DNA from: Lysobacteraceae bacterium
GTDB taxonomy: Bacteria > Pseudomonadota > Gammaproteobacteria > Xanthomonadales > Xanthomonadaceae
Assembly (NCBI GenBank): GCA_027483045.1
Contig: JAIXVL010000103.1
Span: 1 to 46,961 of the forward strand
Direction of reading: 5' to 3'
Length of the DNA stretch: 46,961 nucleotides
Both the position numbers and the translations under genes were made by a program. The notes beneath the pieces are model-generated. The model did no database searches, was not told where the DNA came from, and saw nothing but the letters and a program-made list of their open reading frames with translations. How positions within the stretch are numbered: the stretch's first letter is position 1; each line of letters starts with the position of its first letter. Shown piece after piece: positions 17,374 through 34,064 of this stretch.

Positions 17374-18510
17374 TCAGGACTCAAGCGCGGCAAGCTCGTC
17401 GGCAAGCGCCTGCCAACTCTCGCGCTGGTCACTTAAGCCCAGCGACTCGACCCAAGCTTCGTCCAGCGGCAAATCACTCGCGTGTGCCCACGCGATGTGA
17501 CACGCGCCCACGACGTCCAAACCCTGCTCGCCGGCAAGGGCGGGCGTGGGATGCAAGGCGGCGGCTTCGACCAATGCGCTGGGCAAGCCCCACAAACTCA
17601 GCAGGTACGCGCCCGCTTCCGCATAGGTCGGCCAAAGCGCTTGTTCGGCGCTGGGCTCCAGCCAAGGAAGACGCACATCGGGCAGCATTTGGCCTACACC
17701 CGCCAACAATGCGGCCGTGGCGGCAAGGTCAGCGCGTGGGCCCGGCAACAGGCGCGCTGCAAAGCGCGAGGCCACCAGACTTTGCCGACGCAATTGCTCA
17801 CGTTCCGGCGCCTCAGGCCGCGAGCGGCCCGCACCGAAGATTTCTCCGGCCATGACCAAACGGCGCAACGTGAGATTGCCTAGCCACACCACCGCGGTGT
17901 GAATGTCATCGATGCGCCGCCCGCCGCTGTACATCGCCGAATTGCATAAGCGCAGTACTTTGGCAGCCAGTACGGGGTCGCTCTCCACCAATCCAGCGAC
18001 TTCGCGCGCCGAGACTTCGAGGTCTTCGGTGCGACGCATCAGTTCCAGCGACAACGCAGGCGGCGGCGGCAAACGCCCGATGCGCCCAATCGCTTCGGCC
18101 AACAAGGGGCTTTCCAAGCGCTTGCGCAAGGCCAACACCGCGCGCAAAGAAACCAAAAGCGCCTGGGCGTCGACCGGGTTGTAGAGCAAGCGATGCAGGT
18201 TTTCGAGTGCGGCCAAGCCCGGCGCATCGCGGCCATCGTCGAGCAGCAAGCAACGAATCAGCTTGGGCTGCTCGCGCTTCAACGTACCCAACAAGGCATT
18301 GCCCGAACCATGCGCAAGGCGCGGCTGCACGATGACCGCATCGAACTCCTGCACCGCCACGCGCTCTAGGGCCGTAGCGGCCGTGTCGACCACCGCCATC
18401 GTGGCCGACACACCCAGAGCAGCACTCAGCTCATCGGCCAAGGACGCATCGATGCCGGCGAACAACAGCCGCAACGGGGCTTCAACGGTGGTCGAATCAG
18501 GTGCGCTCAC
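17374..18510 (-). CDS. HDOD-domain signalling protein with receiver-like N-terminus
   Basis: A 378-residue protein. Residues about 8-115 resemble a receiver fold (LRLLFAGIDASLADELSAAL; AVQEFDAVIVQPRLAHGSGN) but the phospho-acceptor region reads VIVQPR, so an Asp is missing and phosphorylation is unlikely. The HDOD domain follows (about 135-340): GRLPPPPALSLELMRRTED, LVESDPVLAAKVLRLCNSAM, YSGGRRIDDIHTAVVWLG. HDOD proteins lack HD metal ligands and act as protein-binding signalling modules. The GTG at 18510 has GAGG 8 bases upstream and is preferred over the far upstream open frame. It precedes the EAL-REC gene by 4 bases and is divergent from a paralogue at 18683. Confidence 0.85.
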   Translation of the reverse strand: MSAPDSTTVEAPLRLLFAGIDASLADELSAALGVSATMAVVDTAATALERVAVQEFDAVIVQPRLAHGSGNALLGTLKREQPKLIRCLLLDDGRDAPGLAALENLHRLLYNPVDAQALLVSLRAVLALRKRLESPLLAEAIGRIGRLPPPPALSLELMRRTEDLEVSAREVAGLVESDPVLAAKVLRLCNSAMYSGGRRIDDIHTAVVWLGNLTLRRLVMAGEIFGAGRSRPEAPEREQLRRQSLVASRFAARLLPGPRADLAATAALLAGVGQMLPDVRLPWLEPSAEQALWPTYAEAGAYLLSLWGLPSALVEAAALHPTPALAGEQGLDVVGACHIAWAHASDLPLDEAWVESLGLSDQRESWQALADELAALES

Positions 18511-18682
18511 ACAGGCCTCGATTGAGCTTTTCGGCACTGTAACAGAGGGCTTGCAAAACGCTGGATGTGCATAAGTGTGATGCAGTGCGCATGAGATCAC
18601 GCACAAGCTGTGACGCTTGGCAGTGATTGGCGGTTAACGCGGATTAGCATGTGTCAACGGCTGCAAAAGTGTTTTCTTGACG
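18511..18682. promoter_or_regulatory. Divergent intergenic region between the two HDOD genes
   Basis: These 172 bases must hold promoters for both HDOD genes, but I cannot assign a convincing sigma-70, sigma-28 or sigma-54 element. The middle (about 18570-18605) has a loose inverted arrangement, TGTGA and TCACG separated by 16 bases, which does not match a CRP/Clp site (6-base spacer). Confidence 0.4.
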
Positions 18683-19774
18683 ATGCGTGTTCTGTTCGCC
18701 ACCTCCGATCCCAACCAACCCGGCGCTGTCGGAGACGCGTTATTGGCGCGAGGCTATGAATGGCAGGTGCTTGCCTATTCGCGCCCTGAGGAAGCCCGTG
18801 AGGTCCTCGCCGATCTGGCCGCCGATGCGGTGGTCGTGGATCTGGCCTTGGACAACGCCGAGGCCCTGCTGCGGCACATGCTGCACACCGCACCGGGCAC
18901 CGCGCGAATGGTGCTGTGCCCCAACGAAACACACGATGTTGCGCTGCGTCTGCTCGCCTTGACCCACGGCATTTTGTCGGCCAAGGACAGCATTGAAGAC
19001 ACTGCCGAGGCGCTGATTGCTTATGCCCGCCTGGCCAAAGGTCTGGACCGCCCCGAGTTGCGCGCCGCCGTCGGCGCCCTGACTCGCCTTCCCGGCGTGC
19101 CCAAGCTCTACATGGCCATCAATCGCGCGCTCGATAACCCCGATGTCGATATCAGCAGCGTGACGCAGATGATCATGGCCGACCCGGTGGTCAGCGGGCG
19201 GGTGCTGCAGCTGGCCAATTCGGCACTCTTCAGCGGTGGACGCCAAGTGAGCAGCATCGCGTTCGCCGTCACACGGCTGGGGCTAAAGACCACGCGCAGT
19301 TTGGTGCTGGCTTCCGAGCTGTACGCCTTGGGTGGTGCCGAGGCCGCACGGGCCGATCGTGTGCGCCAGCAATGCCTGCTGGCGTCTTGGCTTGCGCCGC
19401 GCCTGATGGCCGACCATGTCGACCCCGAAATCGCCAGCACTGCGGCATTGCTCGCCGGTATTGGCCAAATGCTGCCGGAGCTCCTGCTCGACGAGGCCCA
19501 GCCGCTGCCCGATGTGCCGCCCATTGAGGACGAAGCCGCGGCCTATCTTCTGGGTCTGTGGCAGCTGCCCAGCGTGTTGCAGGAGGCCGTGGCTTGGCAG
19601 CGCACTCCGCGCCTATCGGGGGCACGCTTTGGAGTCGTGGGGGCCGTTCACGTCGCCACCGCCTTGGCTTTCGACCGTCCGGTCGACGAGGCCTGGCTGG
19701 AACGCTGCGGCGTGGCCGTTCACCTGCCGGGCTGGCGCGATTTGGCCGACCGAATGGAGCGCAGCGCAGCGTGA
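18683..19774 (+). CDS. HDOD-domain signalling protein, paralogue of the divergent neighbour
   Basis: A 363-residue protein with the same layout as the gene at 17374: a receiver-like N-terminal part (about 1-115; MRVLFATSDPNQPGAVGDAL, DAVVVDLALDNAEALLRHML) and an HDOD domain (about 125-330). Shared blocks are LPGVPKLYMAINRALDN, IMADPVVSGRVLQLANSALF, SGGRQVSSIAFAVTRLG, LLAGIGQMLP and LWQLPS. Here the receiver part keeps an Asp (VVVDLALDN) at the possible acceptor position, unlike the neighbour. The ATG at 18683 is used; a TTG at 18677 is an alternative. No strong ribosome site is visible. The pair probably arose by duplication and may work together. Confidence 0.85.
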   Translation: MRVLFATSDPNQPGAVGDALLARGYEWQVLAYSRPEEAREVLADLAADAVVVDLALDNAEALLRHMLHTAPGTARMVLCPNETHDVALRLLALTHGILSAKDSIEDTAEALIAYARLAKGLDRPELRAAVGALTRLPGVPKLYMAINRALDNPDVDISSVTQMIMADPVVSGRVLQLANSALFSGGRQVSSIAFAVTRLGLKTTRSLVLASELYALGGAEAARADRVRQQCLLASWLAPRLMADHVDPEIASTAALLAGIGQMLPELLLDEAQPLPDVPPIEDEAAAYLLGLWQLPSVLQEAVAWQRTPRLSGARFGVVGAVHVATALAFDRPVDEAWLERCGVAVHLPGWRDLADRMERSAA

Positions 19775-19870: not shown

Positions 19871-22114
19871 ATGAGTCTGAAGCGGCAGGCGGAAACAGAG
19901 GACAGTTTGGTGTTCGCCAGCGAGGAGGGCGAAGACCTCTCGACCGATGCTGCCTGCTGGACGGTGCTCGTCGTCGATGACGAACCCGATGTGTATGCCG
20001 CGACTTGCTTGGCGCTGCGCGGGGTAGAAGTTCTCGGACGGCCGTTGCGTTTCTTGCATGCCGAATCCGGCGAGGAAGCCTTCGCACTGCTCAGCCATGC
20101 GCCCGATGTGGCCGTGATTCTGCTCGACGTGGTGATGGAATCCGAAAGTGCGGGCCTCGACTTGGTCGCGCGTATTCGCGGCGAGTTGGGCATGCACAAG
20201 CCACGCATCATTTTGCGCACCGGCCAACCCGGTTATGCGCCTGAGATGCAGGCGATCCGCGATTACGACATCAACGATTACCGCATCAAGAGCGAACTCA
20301 CGCGTACACGCCTGTACACCGTGCTGACAGCAGCTCTGCGCAGCTACCAAACACTCGAAGCGGTCGAGACCAATCGCGCTGATCTCGAGTACCTGCTGAA
20401 TGCTCAGAACGAACTGCTCGCCGCCAACACCATGCCGGCGTTCGCGCTCGGCGTGTTGGAGCGTCTGGCCGGGTTGTTTGGCATGCCGGTGAACGCCGTG
20501 TTTTGCAGTGATGCGCGGCGCTTCCACGATGTCGATGAGAATCGCCGTCGTGTCGTGGCGGCCTTGGGTCGCTATGTGGATTGGTCGTGGCGCCGACTGG
20601 ATTCCTTGGGCGATGGGCCTGAAGTCGAGGCCATCGAGTTGGCCTTCGCCACGCGCCGCACGGTGTTCGCCAACTGCGGCATTGCGGCGTTCTTGCCTTC
20701 GCGAACAGGCTCAGAGGCGGTCGCTTTTGTTGCCGGACAAGCCGACAGTGACGTGCATGACCCGCGCGTGTTCGACATGTTTGTGCAGAACACCACTGTC
20801 GCGGCCGATGGCGTGCGCTTGGTGGAGCGCTTGCGCGATGCCGCCTATGTGGATGGCCTGACCCGTTTGCCGAATCGCTCGGCTCTCGCCGAGACCATCG
20901 ACACCGTGCTGCGGGCGTTGCCCGAAGCGCCGCAGCGTTTGCTGCTGATCGACATCGATCAGTTTTCTGAGATCAACGAAACCTTCGGCGACCGCATAGG
21001 CGACGCATTGTTGCGCGGCGTGGCACAGCGCTTGGAAACGCAGGCCGGAAGCATCGTTCGCGTGGCGCGTGTGGCCAACGACACCTTCGCCGCATTCGGC
21101 CCGCGCGATGCGCTGGTGCCGGGCGAGTGGGCCAAGAGCTTGGATGAACCCTTCGATGTCGAAGGGCTGGAGATTGGTCTCTCAGTGTCGTTTGGTGGCG
21201 TCGAGATTCGTGGCGACTGCGTGAGCGGCGGGGAAGCCATCAAGATGGGTTACTCGGCGCTCAAGCGCGCTAAGCAAACCGGACATCGCTCGGTCGCCTT
21301 CTACTCGCACGAGGTGGCTACCGAAATCAAAGAGCGCACACGCCTGCTGCACGGGCTGCGGTCGGCCTTCGATCAGCAACGCCTGTTCCTGATGTATCAG
21401 CCGCAGGTGGATGCGCGCACAGGCCGCACATTGGGGCTTGAAGCGCTGATGCGCTGGCGCTCCGACGATGGTCGCTTGGTGCCGCCGGATCGCTTCATTC
21501 CGATTGCCGAGCAGTCGGGGCTGATCAAGGACTTGGGCGCATGGGCCATGCGCACCGCCATCCATCGCGCGGCAAGTTTGCGGGCCGCCGGCCAGAGCCT
21601 GCGCATGGCGGTGAATGTCTCGATGAGCCAACTCTTGGTGCCGGAGTTCGAAGTCATGGTGGCCGAGGCCTTGGCCGAAGGTGGCCTGCCCGCGGAATTG
21701 CTTGAAATCGAAATCACCGAGTCGGTCGCCATGCAGTCGCCTGACATCGTTTTGCCCAAGTTGGCTGCGCTAAAGGCTTTGGGCGTGTGTGTCGCCATCG
21801 ACGATTTCGGCACCGGCTATTCCTCGCTGTCGTCGCTCGAAAAGCTTTCGCCTGATCGCCTGAAGATCGACCGCAGTTTTGTCATGGGCTTGGATGCCGA
21901 ACAGAACACCGGCGGCATCGCCGAAATGATCATCGATCTGGGCCGGACCTTGGGCCTAAGCGTGATTGCAGAAGGCGTCGAAACCGCGACCCAACGACAG
22001 AAGCTCGTCGATTTGGGCTGCCATGAGTTGCAGGGCTATCTGTTCTCGCCGCCCTTGGCCTTGGAGAGTCTGCCGGATTGGCTGGAGCGCCATGGCGAGG
22101 GCTTCCCTCTATGA
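19871..22114 (+). CDS. REC-DUF3369-GGDEF(degenerate)-EAL response regulator, probable c-di-GMP phosphodiesterase
   Basis: A 747-residue cytoplasmic protein, first of a four-gene overlapping operon. The REC domain (about 32-165) has VLVVDDEPDV, phospho-acceptor Asp86 in ILLDVVM, ILRTGQPG and a conserved Lys in YRIKSEL. A DUF3369 region follows (about 175-320). The GGDEF domain (about 325-480) has AYVDGLTRLPNRSAL and LLLIDIDQFSEIN but reads RVANDTFAAFG where GGDEF should be, so it is probably catalytically dead. The EAL domain (about 490-740) is intact: GLEALMRWR, NVSMSQL, LEIEITES, AIDDFGTGYSSL, KIDRSFV, AEGVET, LQGYLFSPP. ATG 19871 has GGGGGAA upstream. Probable output: phosphorylation-controlled c-di-GMP breakdown, perhaps driven by the kinase at the end of the operon. 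Confidence 0.92.
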   Translation: MSLKRQAETEDSLVFASEEGEDLSTDAACWTVLVVDDEPDVYAATCLALRGVEVLGRPLRFLHAESGEEAFALLSHAPDVAVILLDVVMESESAGLDLVARIRGELGMHKPRIILRTGQPGYAPEMQAIRDYDINDYRIKSELTRTRLYTVLTAALRSYQTLEAVETNRADLEYLLNAQNELLAANTMPAFALGVLERLAGLFGMPVNAVFCSDARRFHDVDENRRRVVAALGRYVDWSWRRLDSLGDGPEVEAIELAFATRRTVFANCGIAAFLPSRTGSEAVAFVAGQADSDVHDPRVFDMFVQNTTVAADGVRLVERLRDAAYVDGLTRLPNRSALAETIDTVLRALPEAPQRLLLIDIDQFSEINETFGDRIGDALLRGVAQRLETQAGSIVRVARVANDTFAAFGPRDALVPGEWAKSLDEPFDVEGLEIGLSVSFGGVEIRGDCVSGGEAIKMGYSALKRAKQTGHRSVAFYSHEVATEIKERTRLLHGLRSAFDQQRLFLMYQPQVDARTGRTLGLEALMRWRSDDGRLVPPDRFIPIAEQSGLIKDLGAWAMRTAIHRAASLRAAGQSLRMAVNVSMSQLLVPEFEVMVAEALAEGGLPAELLEIEITESVAMQSPDIVLPKLAALKALGVCVAIDDFGTGYSSLSSLEKLSPDRLKIDRSFVMGLDAEQNTGGIAEMIIDLGRTLGLSVIAEGVETATQRQKLVDLGCHELQGYLFSPPLALESLPDWLERHGEGFPL

Positions 22115-24102
22115 GCAAGGCGGCCGTACTCGGCGGTGCCCTTTTTCTGGCCAGTGCCGCGGCAGAGGCGCAACCGAGTGCCGAAGAACTGCTCGATCTC
22201 GATATCGCGCAGTTGCTCGAGTTGCCGGTATCGGTGGCCAGTCGCAGCCAACAACGCAGTGGCGACGCCGCCGCCGCGGTCTACGTGATCGATGCCGCAA
22301 CCTTGCGCCGCTCAGGCATTCAGCGTTTGCCCGATGCCTTGCGCTTGGTGCCCGGTTTTCATGTGGGCAAGTGGGATGCCAATAAGTGGGCCATCTCGAG
22401 CCGCAACAGCATGAGTCGCTTCACCAGCACCATGTTGGTGTTGATTGACGGGCGACCCGCTTACACACCGCTGTTTGGCGGCGTGCGCTGGGAAATCATG
22501 GATTTGCCCATCGATGAGATTGAGCGCATTGAAGTCGTGCGTGGCCCGGGGGGTCCGCTCTGGGGCGCGAATGCGGTGGACGGCATCGTCTCGATTGTCA
22601 CGCGGCACAGCAGCGCCACCTTGGGCGAGCACGCGCTTCTCGCACTTGGAGACGGTGATGTAGAGCGCGTGGGCGAAGCCCGCATCGGCCGAGCCGCCGG
22701 CGATTGGACCTGGCGCTTGAGTACGCGTTGGGTGGATTCAGCACCCGGCCTTCTGCCTGAACCCTCGCGGAGCACGTGGACCGCGCCGCGTGCCGTGGGG
22801 GAAGAGGCGCACGACGAAGGCCTGTTTCGCTCTGCCATGCTGCGCGTGGATAGCGCTAAGGACCGCGACGGTGGCAAGTGGAGCGTGTGGCTAGGCCATC
22901 GCGAAAGCAGCTTCACCGACCAGCGCCTAGTGGGCGGGCAGCCGCGCGACAACCGCAATCAAATCAAGTTGGATTACGCCTCGGCCGAATGGCGAACTCA
23001 GCCTAAAGAGGGGCAAAACCTCGCATTGCGCGGATCCGTGCATCAACTCGTGGTGGGCGATAGCGTTCTTTGGGACGACCAACGCGTGGTGGATGTCGAC
23101 TTTCAGCATGATGGTGTGAGCGGTCGTCACACATGGGCTTGGGGTCTGGGTCTTAACCATTATCGAAGCGACACGCGAACTCCGCCCCGCTTTGCGACTC
23201 CACCGTGCACGGGATGTTTCGGGGCGAACCCACAGGTGGGCACAGATACGAAGCGCAGCTTCTTTGCCCAGAGCCAGACCGCCCTGAACGCGCAATGGTC
23301 GGTGATTCTTGGCGCAAAGCTTGAGGACTCACGCAGCATGCAGTGGGAATGGCAGCCCACGGCGCGCTTGCGCTGGCAGCCCACCGAGCAGCAAACCTTC
23401 TGGAGCAGTTGGACGCGCGCCTTGCGTTCGTCGACGCGACTTGAGCGCGACGGTGCCTTCTTCAATGTGCCCGCCAATCTGGTCACGGCATTCCGTTGCC
23501 GAACCTACGCTGCGGGTGTGTGTGGCATTGGCAATCCAGAGCAAGAACCTTGGGTGGTCGACGTCGCCGAACTGGGCTGGCGCAACCAGATCACGCCGAG
23601 CATTGCGTTCGATGTTGCGGCGTTCCGAAGCGACTATTCCAACCTAGCGGGGCTACCGGGCGACCGCATTCGCGAGCGCGTGCAGGGCGTTGAGGTCGTG
23701 GCGCAATGGGCGCCGAACGCGCAGTGGGCCGTTAACGCCTCGGCTACACGGCATCAAGGGCGCGATCGCTTCATCGGCTCGGCGTTAACTGCAGACAGCA
23801 TCTTCCTGCCGGAGCTCAATGGTCAGCTGCATGTGCAGTGGTCGCCTCACGCGGATGTGGATGTGGATGTGCGCTGGTGGAAAGAAGGAGCGCGAAACAC
23901 TGCTTCAACGCGCATCGGTCTTCTGCCCGCTTACCACCGCGTCGATTTGCGCTTGGCTTGGCGCCCTGCAAACGCTTGGGAAGCCGCGCTTGCGATTGGC
24001 AATGCCAACGATGATCGGCCGACTGAGTATTTGGAGGGCTTGCGCGTCAATACCGCTGTGCCTCGCAGCGTGACCCTCTCGCTTTCGCGGTCGCTGCCAT
24101 GA
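22111..24102 (+). CDS. TonB-dependent receptor-like outer-membrane protein
   Basis: A 663-residue outer-membrane protein. A signal peptide (about 1-21, VLGGALFLASAAAEAQP) is followed by a plug domain (about 40-165) with SVASRSQQRSGDAAAAVYVI, LPDALRLVPGFHV, MLVLIDGRPAY, the conserved IERIEVVRGPGGPLWGANAV (in part) and DGIVSIVTR. A beta-barrel makes up the rest. No clear TonB box is visible, and the last residues (LSLSRSLP) lack the usual terminal aromatic residue. The ATG overlaps the stop of the phosphodiesterase gene (ATGA), and its own stop overlaps the YfiR gene the same way. Ligand unknown. Such receptors next to YfiR proteins may act as sensors rather than importers; this is inference. 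Confidence 0.9.
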   Translation: MSKAAVLGGALFLASAAAEAQPSAEELLDLDIAQLLELPVSVASRSQQRSGDAAAAVYVIDAATLRRSGIQRLPDALRLVPGFHVGKWDANKWAISSRNSMSRFTSTMLVLIDGRPAYTPLFGGVRWEIMDLPIDEIERIEVVRGPGGPLWGANAVDGIVSIVTRHSSATLGEHALLALGDGDVERVGEARIGRAAGDWTWRLSTRWVDSAPGLLPEPSRSTWTAPRAVGEEAHDEGLFRSAMLRVDSAKDRDGGKWSVWLGHRESSFTDQRLVGGQPRDNRNQIKLDYASAEWRTQPKEGQNLALRGSVHQLVVGDSVLWDDQRVVDVDFQHDGVSGRHTWAWGLGLNHYRSDTRTPPRFATPPCTGCFGANPQVGTDTKRSFFAQSQTALNAQWSVILGAKLEDSRSMQWEWQPTARLRWQPTEQQTFWSSWTRALRSSTRLERDGAFFNVPANLVTAFRCRTYAAGVCGIGNPEQEPWVVDVAELGWRNQITPSIAFDVAAFRSDYSNLAGLPGDRIRERVQGVEVVAQWAPNAQWAVNASATRHQGRDRFIGSALTADSIFLPELNGQLHVQWSPHADVDVDVRWWKEGARNTASTRIGLLPAYHRVDLRLAWRPANAWEAALAIGNANDDRPTEYLEGLRVNTAVPRSVTLSLSRSLP

Positions 24103-24686
24103 GCCTACCGACGAAGCCTTGGACGATGACGCGCTTGCGCAGTTGGCTTGCCATGCTGGTGATCGTCCAGTGCGTGGCGGCATCACCTGCAAACGCGGCA
24201 GGCGCTGCCACCGACGAGTTCGCACTCAAGGCAGCGTTTCTCTACAACTTCACGCGTTTTGTTGAATGGCCGGAGAGCGCCTTTGCGTCGGCGCAAGACC
24301 CATTCCGGATGTGCGTGACTGGCGAAGATCCGTTTGGAAATCGACTGGTGGCTCTGCGCCAGCGCCGCGTTGGCGACCGCGCGATTCGAGTGGAGTACCC
24401 CACCACGGTCGATGCTTTGGGTCGTTGCCAGATGATCTACATCGGCGATGCCACGCCAGCCGATTTGCGTGCTGCTGCTCTGCGGCGCGATCCGACCAGC
24501 ATGCTGACCGTTTCGAGTGACAGCAGCTTCGCGCGGCAAGGCGGCATGGTGGCGCTGGTCACCGAAGCTGGGCGCGTTCGTCTGCACATCAACTTGGTCG
24601 CTGTACGCAGCTCGCCCCTGCGCTTCAGCGCAAAGCTGCTCGAGATTGCCCAAGTGCGTCATGGCGATGCGGGGCCGCAACTGTGA
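24099..24686 (+). CDS. YfiR-family (DUF4154) periplasmic signalling protein
   Basis: A 195-residue secreted protein. The signal peptide (about 11-34, LRSWLAMLVIVQCVAASPAN) is followed by the YfiR signature DEFALKAAFLYNFTRFVEWP at 39-58, a Cys at 72 (FRMCVTGEDPFG), a Cys at 110 (LGRCQMIYIG), and the C-terminal block RQGGMVALVTEAGRVRLHIN followed by SAKLLEIAQV. In Pseudomonas aeruginosa YfiR holds the cyclase YfiN in check through its periplasmic domain and is redox-controlled by Cys. The first Cys pair seems kept here, while I see no second pair. Start ATG overlaps the receptor stop; the stop overlaps the kinase start, so this product and the kinase are coupled in translation. Confidence 0.92.
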   Translation: MSLPTKPWTMTRLRSWLAMLVIVQCVAASPANAAGAATDEFALKAAFLYNFTRFVEWPESAFASAQDPFRMCVTGEDPFGNRLVALRQRRVGDRAIRVEYPTTVDALGRCQMIYIGDATPADLRAAALRRDPTSMLTVSSDSSFARQGGMVALVTEAGRVRLHINLVAVRSSPLRFSAKLLEIAQVRHGDAGPQL

Positions 24687-26662
24687 AGCAATGGTTGCGT
24701 GCGCGCTCCATCCGATCGCGCCTGATGCTGGTGATTGGCACGGTGGTGTTTTTTGCGATTAGCACCTTTGGTGGCCTGGCTTTGGTTTCGGAGCAGCGTG
24801 CCGCGCGAGAAACATTGTCGGCCGAGCAAGGCGCCTTGGCCGCTCTGGTGGCCAACCGCAGCGGTGCCGCTTTGGTGTTCGGCGATCAGGCCTTGGCGCA
24901 AGAAAACCTTGATGCTCTAGGCGCGGTGCCCCATGTGCAGAGCGCCTGTTTGTACGACAGCGCCCAACAGTTGTTTGCTGGGTTCTCTGCTGAACGAGCA
25001 AGCACGAAATGCCCCGAGCTGCATGGTCAGGACGCTGCACTGCTGAACGGTGACTCGCTCACCGTCGAAGTGCCTGTCGTGCTCGACGATACCGTCGGCA
25101 CGCTTGTTCTTATGAGCAGCTTGCAGCCCCTGCGCGAACGACTGGGCGAGCAGGCGCGCACGTGGGCAATTACCGGCACCATCGGCGGCGCCTTGGCCCT
25201 GCTGTTAGCGGCATTGCTTGAGCGACTGATCTCTGGCCCGATTCGCCGCGTGAATGCAGTGGCCGAGTCGGTCAGCCGAGGTGGCGATACGGGCCTGCGA
25301 GCGCCGGTCGAAAGCCGGGATGAAGTTGGAAAGCTCGCCGATGCCTTCAACCGCATGCTCGACCGCTTAGACGAGCAAACCCAACGTCTGAAGCTGCAGG
25401 CGGAGTACAACGAGGTCCTGTTCCAACGCTCGCCCTTGCCTGTGCTAGTGATTGATCCAGCGCTCGGACATTGCGTCGATTGCAACGATGCCGCCGTCAC
25501 CATCTATGGCTTCAGCACGCGGGAAGAAACCCTAGCAACCAGTGCGGCCGATGTTTCTACCGAGCTGCAATACGACGGTACGCCCTCGGCCGAAGCCATC
25601 GTGCCGCGCGTGCAAGCCGCACTTGCTGGTGTGCCGCAGGTATACGACTGGCGCCATCGCCGCCTGGACGGAAGCGAGTTTGACGCCGAGGTTCATCTCG
25701 CGCGCTTCGGCCCCGACGAAGCCCCTCTGCTTCTGACGAGTCTGTTCGATGTCACCGAACGCAAACAGACGGCAGCGCAACTGACGCGGTTGAACGAGGC
25801 GCTCGAAACCCGTGTTGAGGAGCGCACGCAGCAACTGGCCAATTCGAATCGCGAGCTTTCCGACACCATTAGTCGTTTGCAATTGGCACAAGGCGAATTG
25901 GTGCGCAGCGAGCGATTGGCGTCTTTGGGCTCGCTGGTGGCCGGCGTGGCGCACGAGTTGAACACACCTCTGGGCAGCGTGCTCTTGGTGGCCACGACGC
26001 TTGGCGATGGTTTGGAAGACTTGCGCCGACAGCTAGAAAGCGGCGAGCTGAAGCGCTCCGCATTGCAGAGCTTTCTTGCTCAGCAGTCCGAGGCGCAGGC
26101 CCTTATCGTGCGCAATGCGCGCCGTGCCGCCGAGTTGATCGGGCGCTTTAAGCAAGTGGCCGTCGATCAAACCTCGGAGCAACGTCGTCGCTTCGACTTG
26201 GGCGAAGTCGTGAACGAAGTGCTTGGCACCTTGCAGCCACGCATTCGCAAGACACCGCACCAAGTGATTGTGGAAGTGCCCGACGGCCTGCAGATGGACA
26301 GTTATCCCGGCCCACTGGGGCAAGTCATCACCAATCTGGTGTTGAACGCCATCATTCACGGCCTGCAGGACGATGCGGGTGTGGTGCGAGTTATCGCGCG
26401 CGCCGTGGGCGACACCGACATTGAGCTGCAGGTTTGCGACAACGGCGTGGGCATTCCTGCCGAGAATCTGCCGCGCATTTTCGATCCCTTCTTCACCACC
26501 AAATTGGGCGAGGGCGGCAGCGGCTTGGGCCTGCACATTGTTTACAGCTTGGTGCAACGCAGCTTGGGCGGGCAAATCGGCGTGGACAGCAAGGTGGGGC
26601 AAGGCGCGCAGTTCTTTGTGCGTTTGCCGCGCTCGGCGCCGCAGGCGGAACAGGCGGAGTGA
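24683..26662 (+). CDS. Membrane histidine kinase with YfiN-like sensor (CHASE8-HAMP-PAS-HisKA-HATPase)
   Basis: A 659-residue kinase. TM1 at about 14-35; a periplasmic domain (36-160) with ALAALVANRSGAALVFGDQA and an AL..VPHVQSACLYD pattern, like the CHASE8 domain of YfiN; TM2 at about 162-183; HAMP (184-236); PAS (245-360, LFDVTERKQ at its end); coiled coil (361-405); HisKA with H-box GVAHELNTPLGSV, His424; and HATPase (about 540-655) with NLVLNAIIHGL, CDNGVGIPAENL, FDPFFTTK, GSGLGLHIVYS. The start is GTG at 24683, overlapping the YfiR stop (GTGA). YfiN itself ends in GGDEF; here the output is a kinase. Its likely input is the adjacent YfiR protein and its likely target the REC domain of the first gene (inference). 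Confidence 0.92.
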   Translation: MKQWLRARSIRSRLMLVIGTVVFFAISTFGGLALVSEQRAARETLSAEQGALAALVANRSGAALVFGDQALAQENLDALGAVPHVQSACLYDSAQQLFAGFSAERASTKCPELHGQDAALLNGDSLTVEVPVVLDDTVGTLVLMSSLQPLRERLGEQARTWAITGTIGGALALLLAALLERLISGPIRRVNAVAESVSRGGDTGLRAPVESRDEVGKLADAFNRMLDRLDEQTQRLKLQAEYNEVLFQRSPLPVLVIDPALGHCVDCNDAAVTIYGFSTREETLATSAADVSTELQYDGTPSAEAIVPRVQAALAGVPQVYDWRHRRLDGSEFDAEVHLARFGPDEAPLLLTSLFDVTERKQTAAQLTRLNEALETRVEERTQQLANSNRELSDTISRLQLAQGELVRSERLASLGSLVAGVAHELNTPLGSVLLVATTLGDGLEDLRRQLESGELKRSALQSFLAQQSEAQALIVRNARRAAELIGRFKQVAVDQTSEQRRRFDLGEVVNEVLGTLQPRIRKTPHQVIVEVPDGLQMDSYPGPLGQVITNLVLNAIIHGLQDDAGVVRVIARAVGDTDIELQVCDNGVGIPAENLPRIFDPFFTTKLGEGGSGLGLHIVYSLVQRSLGGQIGVDSKVGQGAQFFVRLPRSAPQAEQAE

Positions 26663-33981: not shown

Positions 33982-34064
33982 GCCGTCCCCTTGGCTTCAT
34001 TGTGGGCAAAAGCGCCACGCTGCGTCACGCTTGAATGACGCCAAGGCGCCCCCACCCTTGCCGG

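Follow-up and report, generated by a model that had tools for sequence, protein, structure and literature searches.

What does a YfiR-type periplasmic protein control when the membrane sensor encoded beside it ends in a histidine kinase and not in a GGDEF domain? This question is raised by the gene at 24683-26662 of a 46,961-nucleotide contig of a Lysobacteraceae bacterium (JAIXVL010000103.1, assembly GCA_027483045.1; the whole stretch is called the window here), in which the CHASE8 sensor domain known from YfiN is joined to a kinase core and preceded by a YfiR-like gene. The answer that we favor, with a probability of about 0.65, is that YfiR restrains the kinase and that the kinase controls a phosphodiesterase of cyclic dimeric GMP (c-di-GMP) in trans, which would make the locus a YfiR-type envelope system with a kinase output. 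The original prediction, made from the letters of the window, was right on the YfiR-kinase pair but overlooked two further members of the operon, a c-di-GMP response regulator and a TonB-dependent receptor.

The Sensor Kinase and Its YfiR Neighbor

The order of domains first read in the kinase, CHASE8-HAMP-PAS-HisKA-HATPase, is borne out by Pfam, with a weak PAS (residues 244-359, every PAS model under its cut-off). CHASE8 (PF17152; cut-off 27 bits) scores 62.3, which makes the protein a member of that family. HisKA reaches 25.7 bits in the protein scan, slightly under its cut-off of 26.9, but 30.7 bits, over the cut-off, in the whole-genome scan; with HATPase_c at 88.5 bits, the protein qualifies as a histidine kinase. 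The phospho-acceptor H424 lies within HELNTPLG, and what we take to be the N, G1, F and G2 boxes are all found. Because hydropathy predicts transmembrane helices at residues 10-28 and 161-179, with the CHASE8 match between them, the periplasmic part would extend from about 29 to 160, close to the 36-160 originally proposed, and the NRSGAALVFGD pattern on which that proposal relied is located at residues 58-68.

The GTG start of the kinase overlaps the YfiR stop codon as GTGA (24683-24686), so the translational coupling that had been suggested is a fair inference. YfiR itself scores 138 bits with DUF4154 and 128.5 bits with NF053591 (YfiR_like_TOL0243, cut-off 125), which accepts it. CHASE8 and DUF4154 each match once in the genome (313 contigs, 93% complete), in either case at this locus.

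YfiR and the Sensor as a Unit

Relatives were collected by searching 398 genomes of the order for CHASE8 (99 matched at E 0.001) and DUF4154 (38 matched) and 369 genomes of the class for NF053591 (58 matched), and one further scan of genome contigs contributed 21 loci. The 161 loci, labeled L and a number below, were annotated together with the window by hidden Markov models built iteratively from the window's own proteins; Pfam agreed with this annotation on the six relatives checked. A possible artefact of the home-made models in the REC labels was rejected, as Pfam confirmed them on L091, L199, L146 and L225.

After removal of two duplicates (L226 and L227, of L128 and L127), there are 118 adjacent YfiR-CHASE8 pairs, distributed over several phyla and with YfiR upstream in 115 of them. 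Their outputs are 44 kinases, 40 hybrid kinases, 4 single proteins combining kinase and GGDEF-EAL, 22 GGDEF-EAL, 6 GGDEF and 2 classified as "other" (L149, cut by a contig end, and L232), the last being outside the output comparison. L100, on a short contig, was excluded from the trees. L239 resembled a YfiR-CHASE8-kinase fusion, which was rejected because the apparent junction is a stretch of N in the assembly; neither the trees nor the distance tests include it, yet it is counted among the 84 kinase-type pairs and the 34 with a linked regulator discussed below.

A tree of the 114 pairs was built from YfiR plus CHASE8 (252 columns); YfiR by itself gives a tree with poor support. In its best form, the combined tree implies 12 changes of output between kinase and cyclase, of which 5 persist after branches with an SH-aLRT support under 80 have been collapsed and 2 at a threshold of 95. 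The output thus changes, among kinase, hybrid kinase, GGDEF and GGDEF-EAL, while YfiR and CHASE8 stay together, and the comparison supports the proposal that the sensor is a swappable module, although the idea is not new (see below).

The correlation of evolutionary distances (rho) indicates where the module ends. Among 59 kinase pairs with a TonB-dependent receptor gene, YfiR correlates with CHASE8 (0.483) and not with the HATPase domain (-0.007), the bootstrap range of the difference being 0.35 to 0.60, and CHASE8 correlates little with HATPase (0.133) although both belong to one chain. A second set consisted of 28 pairs with an adjacent EAL-bearing regulator, reduced to 21 once the window's genus and another genus had been thinned. 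In it, rho is high for HATPase and the REC domain of the regulator (0.519, and 0.590 in the thinned set) and for YfiR and CHASE8 (0.441 and 0.434), whereas YfiR hardly follows REC (0.083 and -0.050) or HATPase (0.071 and -0.102), and CHASE8-HATPase gives 0.316 and 0.190. There are, consequently, two co-varying blocks, YfiR with CHASE8 and the kinase core with REC, and the join between them lies within the kinase. That the two genes are adjacent by chance or history, with no interaction between their products, is very improbable given the number and spread of the pairs, their nearly constant order, and the tracking by YfiR of CHASE8 but not of the HATPase of the same protein (0.48 versus -0.01). 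For the last reason, we also rejected the view of the kinase as an ordinary orphan with an unrelated YfiR as its neighbor.

Neither partner is always found with the other. The comparison set includes 13 CHASE8 genes with no adjacent YfiR, and 19 of the 102 loci listed have YfiR with no CHASE8 gene, mostly beside a TonB receptor, so YfiR is not always accompanied by CHASE8. In L151, L153, L161, L188, L191, L211, L213, L217 and others, YfiR genes have TonB-receptor genes as neighbors and no CHASE8 protein in the vicinity, some genomes having several such copies, which suggests an independent unit of YfiR and this receptor family.

The scans of mobile elements with the kinase returned 24 loci on viral contigs, matched in the kinase core only (best identity 32-33%) and with no YfiR-CHASE8 system among them. 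The plasmid scan gave 162 records, all under 60% identity, of which 6, from Azospirillum, cover at least 80% of the query.

Contact Residues and Structure Models

In the sections of Malone et al. (2012, PMC3375315) considered here, residues A66-A67-V68-V69-F70 of YfiN are proposed as the patch that binds YfiR. The counterpart in the window is A62-A63-L64-V65-F66. The phenylalanine of this AAxxF motif is present in all 114 YfiR-paired sensors, F66 being the sole invariant column of the 52 aligned, and in 4/4 further sensors whose YfiR has a nonadjacent place in the locus or a broken contig; the complete motif occurs in none of nine CHASE8-like sensors from loci lacking any YfiR. The initial statement that the same sensor is joined to GGDEF in YfiN agrees with the E. 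coli control genome, which matches CHASE8 and DUF4154 and whose DgcN has AAVVF at the same place. On the YfiR side, the C71/C110 pair of the P. aeruginosa protein corresponds to C72 and C110, and the residue aligned to F162 is leucine in the window (64% of the kinase-type YfiRs and 93% of the cyclase-type ones have phenylalanine there).

AlphaFold2 models of the sensor (residues 1-187) and of YfiR reach a mean predicted local distance difference test score (pLDDT) of 92.6 and 91.3, respectively. The modeled sensor has an extracytoplasmic PAS/Cache-like fold, matching WalK, the LapD homologue CdgS9, CitA and DctB, and F66 is in a turn between a long helix (10-65) and a second one (69-81), which, judged by the order of helices, would make it face away from the membrane. 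A phmmer search of the sensor against PDB sequences gave no match; the fold comparison did find matches. Likewise, the YfiR sequence has only weak matches in PDB (P. aeruginosa YfiR at best E 0.008), and the fold confirms the assignment, since the listed P. aeruginosa YfiR structures all rank first (E 1e-7). CHASE8 is assigned to the CACHE-like clan in the part of PMC8846402 used here.

The Probable Output Partner

The probable output partner of the kinase is the REC-DUF3369-GGDEF-EAL response regulator of the same operon. Since its EAL motifs are intact (E533-A-L, EITES, DDFG and EGVE) and its GGDEF signature is degenerate, reading RVAND, it is predicted to be a c-di-GMP phosphodiesterase with no cyclase activity, under the motif rules that we assume for both domains; D95 is the likely phospho-acceptor. 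The regulator adjoins the YfiR-kinase pair in 8/8 genomes of the genus (window, L095 and L126-L131), with a TonB-dependent receptor gene between them in three (window, L127 and L130). That gene is missing from this position in L095, L126, L128, L129 and L131. In L126 (10922-13161, minus strand), the regulator is split into two open reading frames, REC-DUF3369-GGDEF and EAL, either a split gene or an assembly error. A second DUF3369 gene of the window's genome (G000:C156:2384-4062, minus strand) has a weak HisKA match as its same-strand neighbor. Each of the genome's two DUF3369 regulators accordingly adjoins a weakly scoring HisKA, which counts in favor of the partnership.

Beyond the genus, a REC protein with GGDEF and/or EAL is encoded on the same strand within 5 kb in 34 of the 84 kinase-type pairs and in none of the 28 cyclase-type pairs (p 8e-6, uncorrected for kinship). 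The difference persists when genera are counted (23/58 versus 0/20, p 4e-4) and when at least 4 kb of contig is required on both sides (30/68 versus 0/22 pairs). An EAL neighbor is found in 21/58 kinase genera and in 7 of 67 unrelated HisKA places (p 1e-3), a control drawn from only the best HisKA matches of seven of the same genomes, with EAL counted on the same strand within 6.5 kb, so that the distance rule differs slightly between the two groups. Additionally, the entire relay exists as a single chain, CHASE8-HAMP-HK-REC-REC-REC-GGDEF-EAL (HK, histidine kinase), in proteins of about 1660-1730 residues from L104, L105, L108 and L199; the last, checked with Pfam, has Hpt and PAS as well.

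A different reading accepts that YfiR controls the kinase and proposes that its main target is an unlinked regulator (e.g., a transcription factor), the EAL regulator being a bystander or the partner of another kinase. At many homologous loci, the only REC protein nearby stands alone or there is none, and the weakly matching HisKA is of a kind that may serve several partners; we nevertheless regard an unlinked target as distinctly unlikely, as the operon is coupled, the regulator is linked throughout the genus, kinase and receiver co-vary, and nature has fused them.

Several observations do weigh against a YfiR-controlled kinase that acts on the linked phosphodiesterase. No REC-(GGDEF/EAL) gene is found within 5 kb in 50 of the 84 kinase-type pairs (some contigs being short), the test of kinase output against c-di-GMP regulator in phylogenetically independent pairs had two supported pairs only and no power, and adjacency of kinases and regulators is common in general. 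The motif phenylalanine is also present in 4/9 CHASE8-like sensors of loci lacking YfiR. At most of the loci that contain a TonB gene, other outputs are found as well, which makes the role of the receptor a guess.

The more general proposal, that a YfiR-CHASE8 module stays with c-di-GMP when it passes from cyclase to kinase, evolution joining the YfiR-CHASE8 block to a separately co-evolving block of kinase core and REC-GGDEF/EAL regulator inside the HAMP/linker region and connecting the periplasmic repressor to a c-di-GMP enzyme by phosphotransfer, is tentative, and we give it slightly less than an even chance. If true, a one-protein switch becomes a catalytic, possibly sign-inverted relay.

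Proposed Mechanism and the Sign of Control

The domains, operon overlaps, conserved linkage, conserved motif and the two co-varying blocks are observed; from them we infer binding, inhibition, phosphotransfer, the direction of control and the role of the receptor. By analogy with YfiR-YfiN, periplasmic YfiR would bind the tip of CHASE8 at the AALVF patch and hold the kinase in one state, with the kinase activity off or a phosphatase activity on. An event in the envelope, probably one that involves either the TonB-dependent receptor of the operon or the redox state of C72/C110, would remove YfiR, and the change would travel through the second transmembrane helix and HAMP to HisKA/HATPase. H424 would then phosphorylate D95 of the regulator, altering its phosphodiesterase activity. 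In this manner, the locus would retain the second messenger of YfiBNR and act on it through phosphotransfer in trans, the sign perhaps being inverted.

The sign of control is where a further alternative enters, namely that YfiR is a ligand-bearing co-receptor that activates the kinase on binding CHASE8, a behavior known from some periplasmic binding proteins and their kinases. The YfiR fold resembles substrate-binding proteins (5z6v and others), and five loci fuse YfiR through a coiled coil and a transmembrane helix to GGDEF or a histidine kinase, so that a free repressor is impossible there; moreover, sequence cannot give the sign of control. We consider activation unlikely on balance, because YfiR represses in the P. 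aeruginosa system as characterized in the sections of PMC3375315 covered, and the proposed contact residues are kept.

The five fusions, all lacking CHASE8, deserve a separate description. YfiR (DUF4154) is joined by a transmembrane helix to GGDEF in L134 (1012-2691, minus strand) and L136 (8618-10318, minus), and to a hybrid kinase in L135 (9609-11906, plus), L224 (7709-10429, minus) and L225 (179-2884, plus). All have a long linker, coiled-coil-like in L134 and L225, and their YfiR is, judging by this arrangement, a putative built-in sensor.

Relation to Known Systems

The locus shares with YfiBNR of P. aeruginosa and YfiR-DgcN-YfiB of E. coli a DUF4154 YfiR of the same fold, encoded upstream by an overlapping gene and retaining the first cysteine pair, and a CHASE8 inner-membrane sensor with AAxxF. 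It differs from YfiBNR proper in its HisKA-HATPase output in place of GGDEF, in a TonB-dependent receptor gene instead of yfiB, in the additional REC-DUF3369-GGDEF-EAL regulator, and in the absence of the second YfiR cysteine pair (C145/C152) and of the central F162. No same-strand OmpA-type reading frame occurs downstream of the kinase up to position 34000 (YfiB was looked for in this interval and not genome-wide), and none of the upstream genes is yfiB.

The arrangement is, in fact, what Malone et al. described in general terms as the YfiR-YfiN[PAS] core. According to the sections covered, divergent systems have GGDEF-EAL, HPT or sensor kinases in the place of GGDEF and mostly lack YfiB, and the YfiR-sensor core is "highly modular" with its contact residues kept. 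The window agrees in its syntenic, overlapping YfiR and its AALVF sensor, with leucine in place of F162 in its YfiR. The central idea is consequently a published hypothesis: the locus is a divergent member of a recognized kind, and a swappable sensor, kinases included, was already proposed in 2012. "TonB" has 0 occurrences in the main text of PMC3375315, and the sections covered name no cognate c-di-GMP response regulator.

The same three gene types define the NCBIfam TOL_0243/TOL_0244 neighborhood (NF053591, NF053590 and NF053592). The window's YfiR passes, whereas the kinase (153.3 bits over residues 9-230 with NF053592, HK_near_YfiR_like, cut-off 194) and the receptor (340 bits with NF053590, cut-off 645) stay under the curated cut-offs, which makes the locus a divergent relative of this neighborhood. 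In fold, the sensor resembles the periplasmic domain of the LapD homologue CdgS9 (4u64; VIA Z 11.0), WalK (11.5) and CitA (10.8), at about 10-14% identity. The periplasmic domain of LapD is likewise governed by a periplasmic protein. In the titles and abstracts returned by searches of the open-licence PubMed Central literature, we found no operon of YfiR, kinase and c-di-GMP regulator and no YfiR-TonB receptor pair; nor did these searches turn up the two-block co-variation, the preference of kinase forms for a c-di-GMP regulator, or this operon.

Organization of the Operon

Four-base overlaps (ATGA, ATGA and GTGA) join regulator, TonB-dependent receptor, YfiR and kinase, the kinase being the last of the four genes (Table 1). 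An HDOD gene ends 97 bp ahead of the regulator on the same strand. It is one of two divergent HDOD genes flanking the operon, the other at 17374-18606 on the minus strand; HDOD genes adjoin the regulator in 6/7 other genomes of the genus, none being seen in L126.

Table 1. Genes of the operon and domains of the sensor kinase, in window coordinates.
Feature	Position	Strand	Basis and remarks
HDOD protein	18677..19774	+	Pfam; possible first operon gene, membership uncertain
REC-DUF3369-GGDEF (degenerate)-EAL (motifs intact) response regulator	19871..22114	+	Pfam, motif inspection
TonB-dependent receptor	22111..24102	+	Pfam, NCBIfam; ATG at 22111, then signal-peptide-like stretch
YfiR-like periplasmic protein (DUF4154; NF053591)	24099..24686	+	Pfam, NCBIfam, model compared with solved YfiR; C72 and C110 kept
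CHASE8-HAMP-(PAS)-HisKA-HATPase sensor histidine kinase	24683..26662	+	Open reading frame list and Pfam; GTG start, 659 residues
CHASE8 periplasmic sensor domain, residues 42-143	24806..25111	+	Pfam and AlphaFold2 model
AALVF, residues 62-66, counterpart of YfiN AAVVF	24866..24880	+	Motif alignment; proposed YfiR-binding site
HAMP domain, residues 179-230	25217..25372	+	Pfam
HisKA, residues 415-475, phospho-acceptor H424	25925..26107	+	Pfam, motif inspection
HATPase_c, residues 544-650	26312..26632	+	Pfam

Implications

The modularity of the YfiR-sensor core has been an in silico proposal since 2012, and this operon offers a small natural object on which to test it, with one YfiR, one kinase, a likely target and an outer-membrane receptor, all coupled. 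Should phosphotransfer be under the control of YfiR, regulation by a periplasmic repressor would reach beyond cyclases to two-component systems, and chimeras of CHASE8 and kinases could be used as tools. The tendency of kinase forms, but not of cyclase forms, to have a c-di-GMP regulator as a neighbor predicts the output of many uncharacterized loci.

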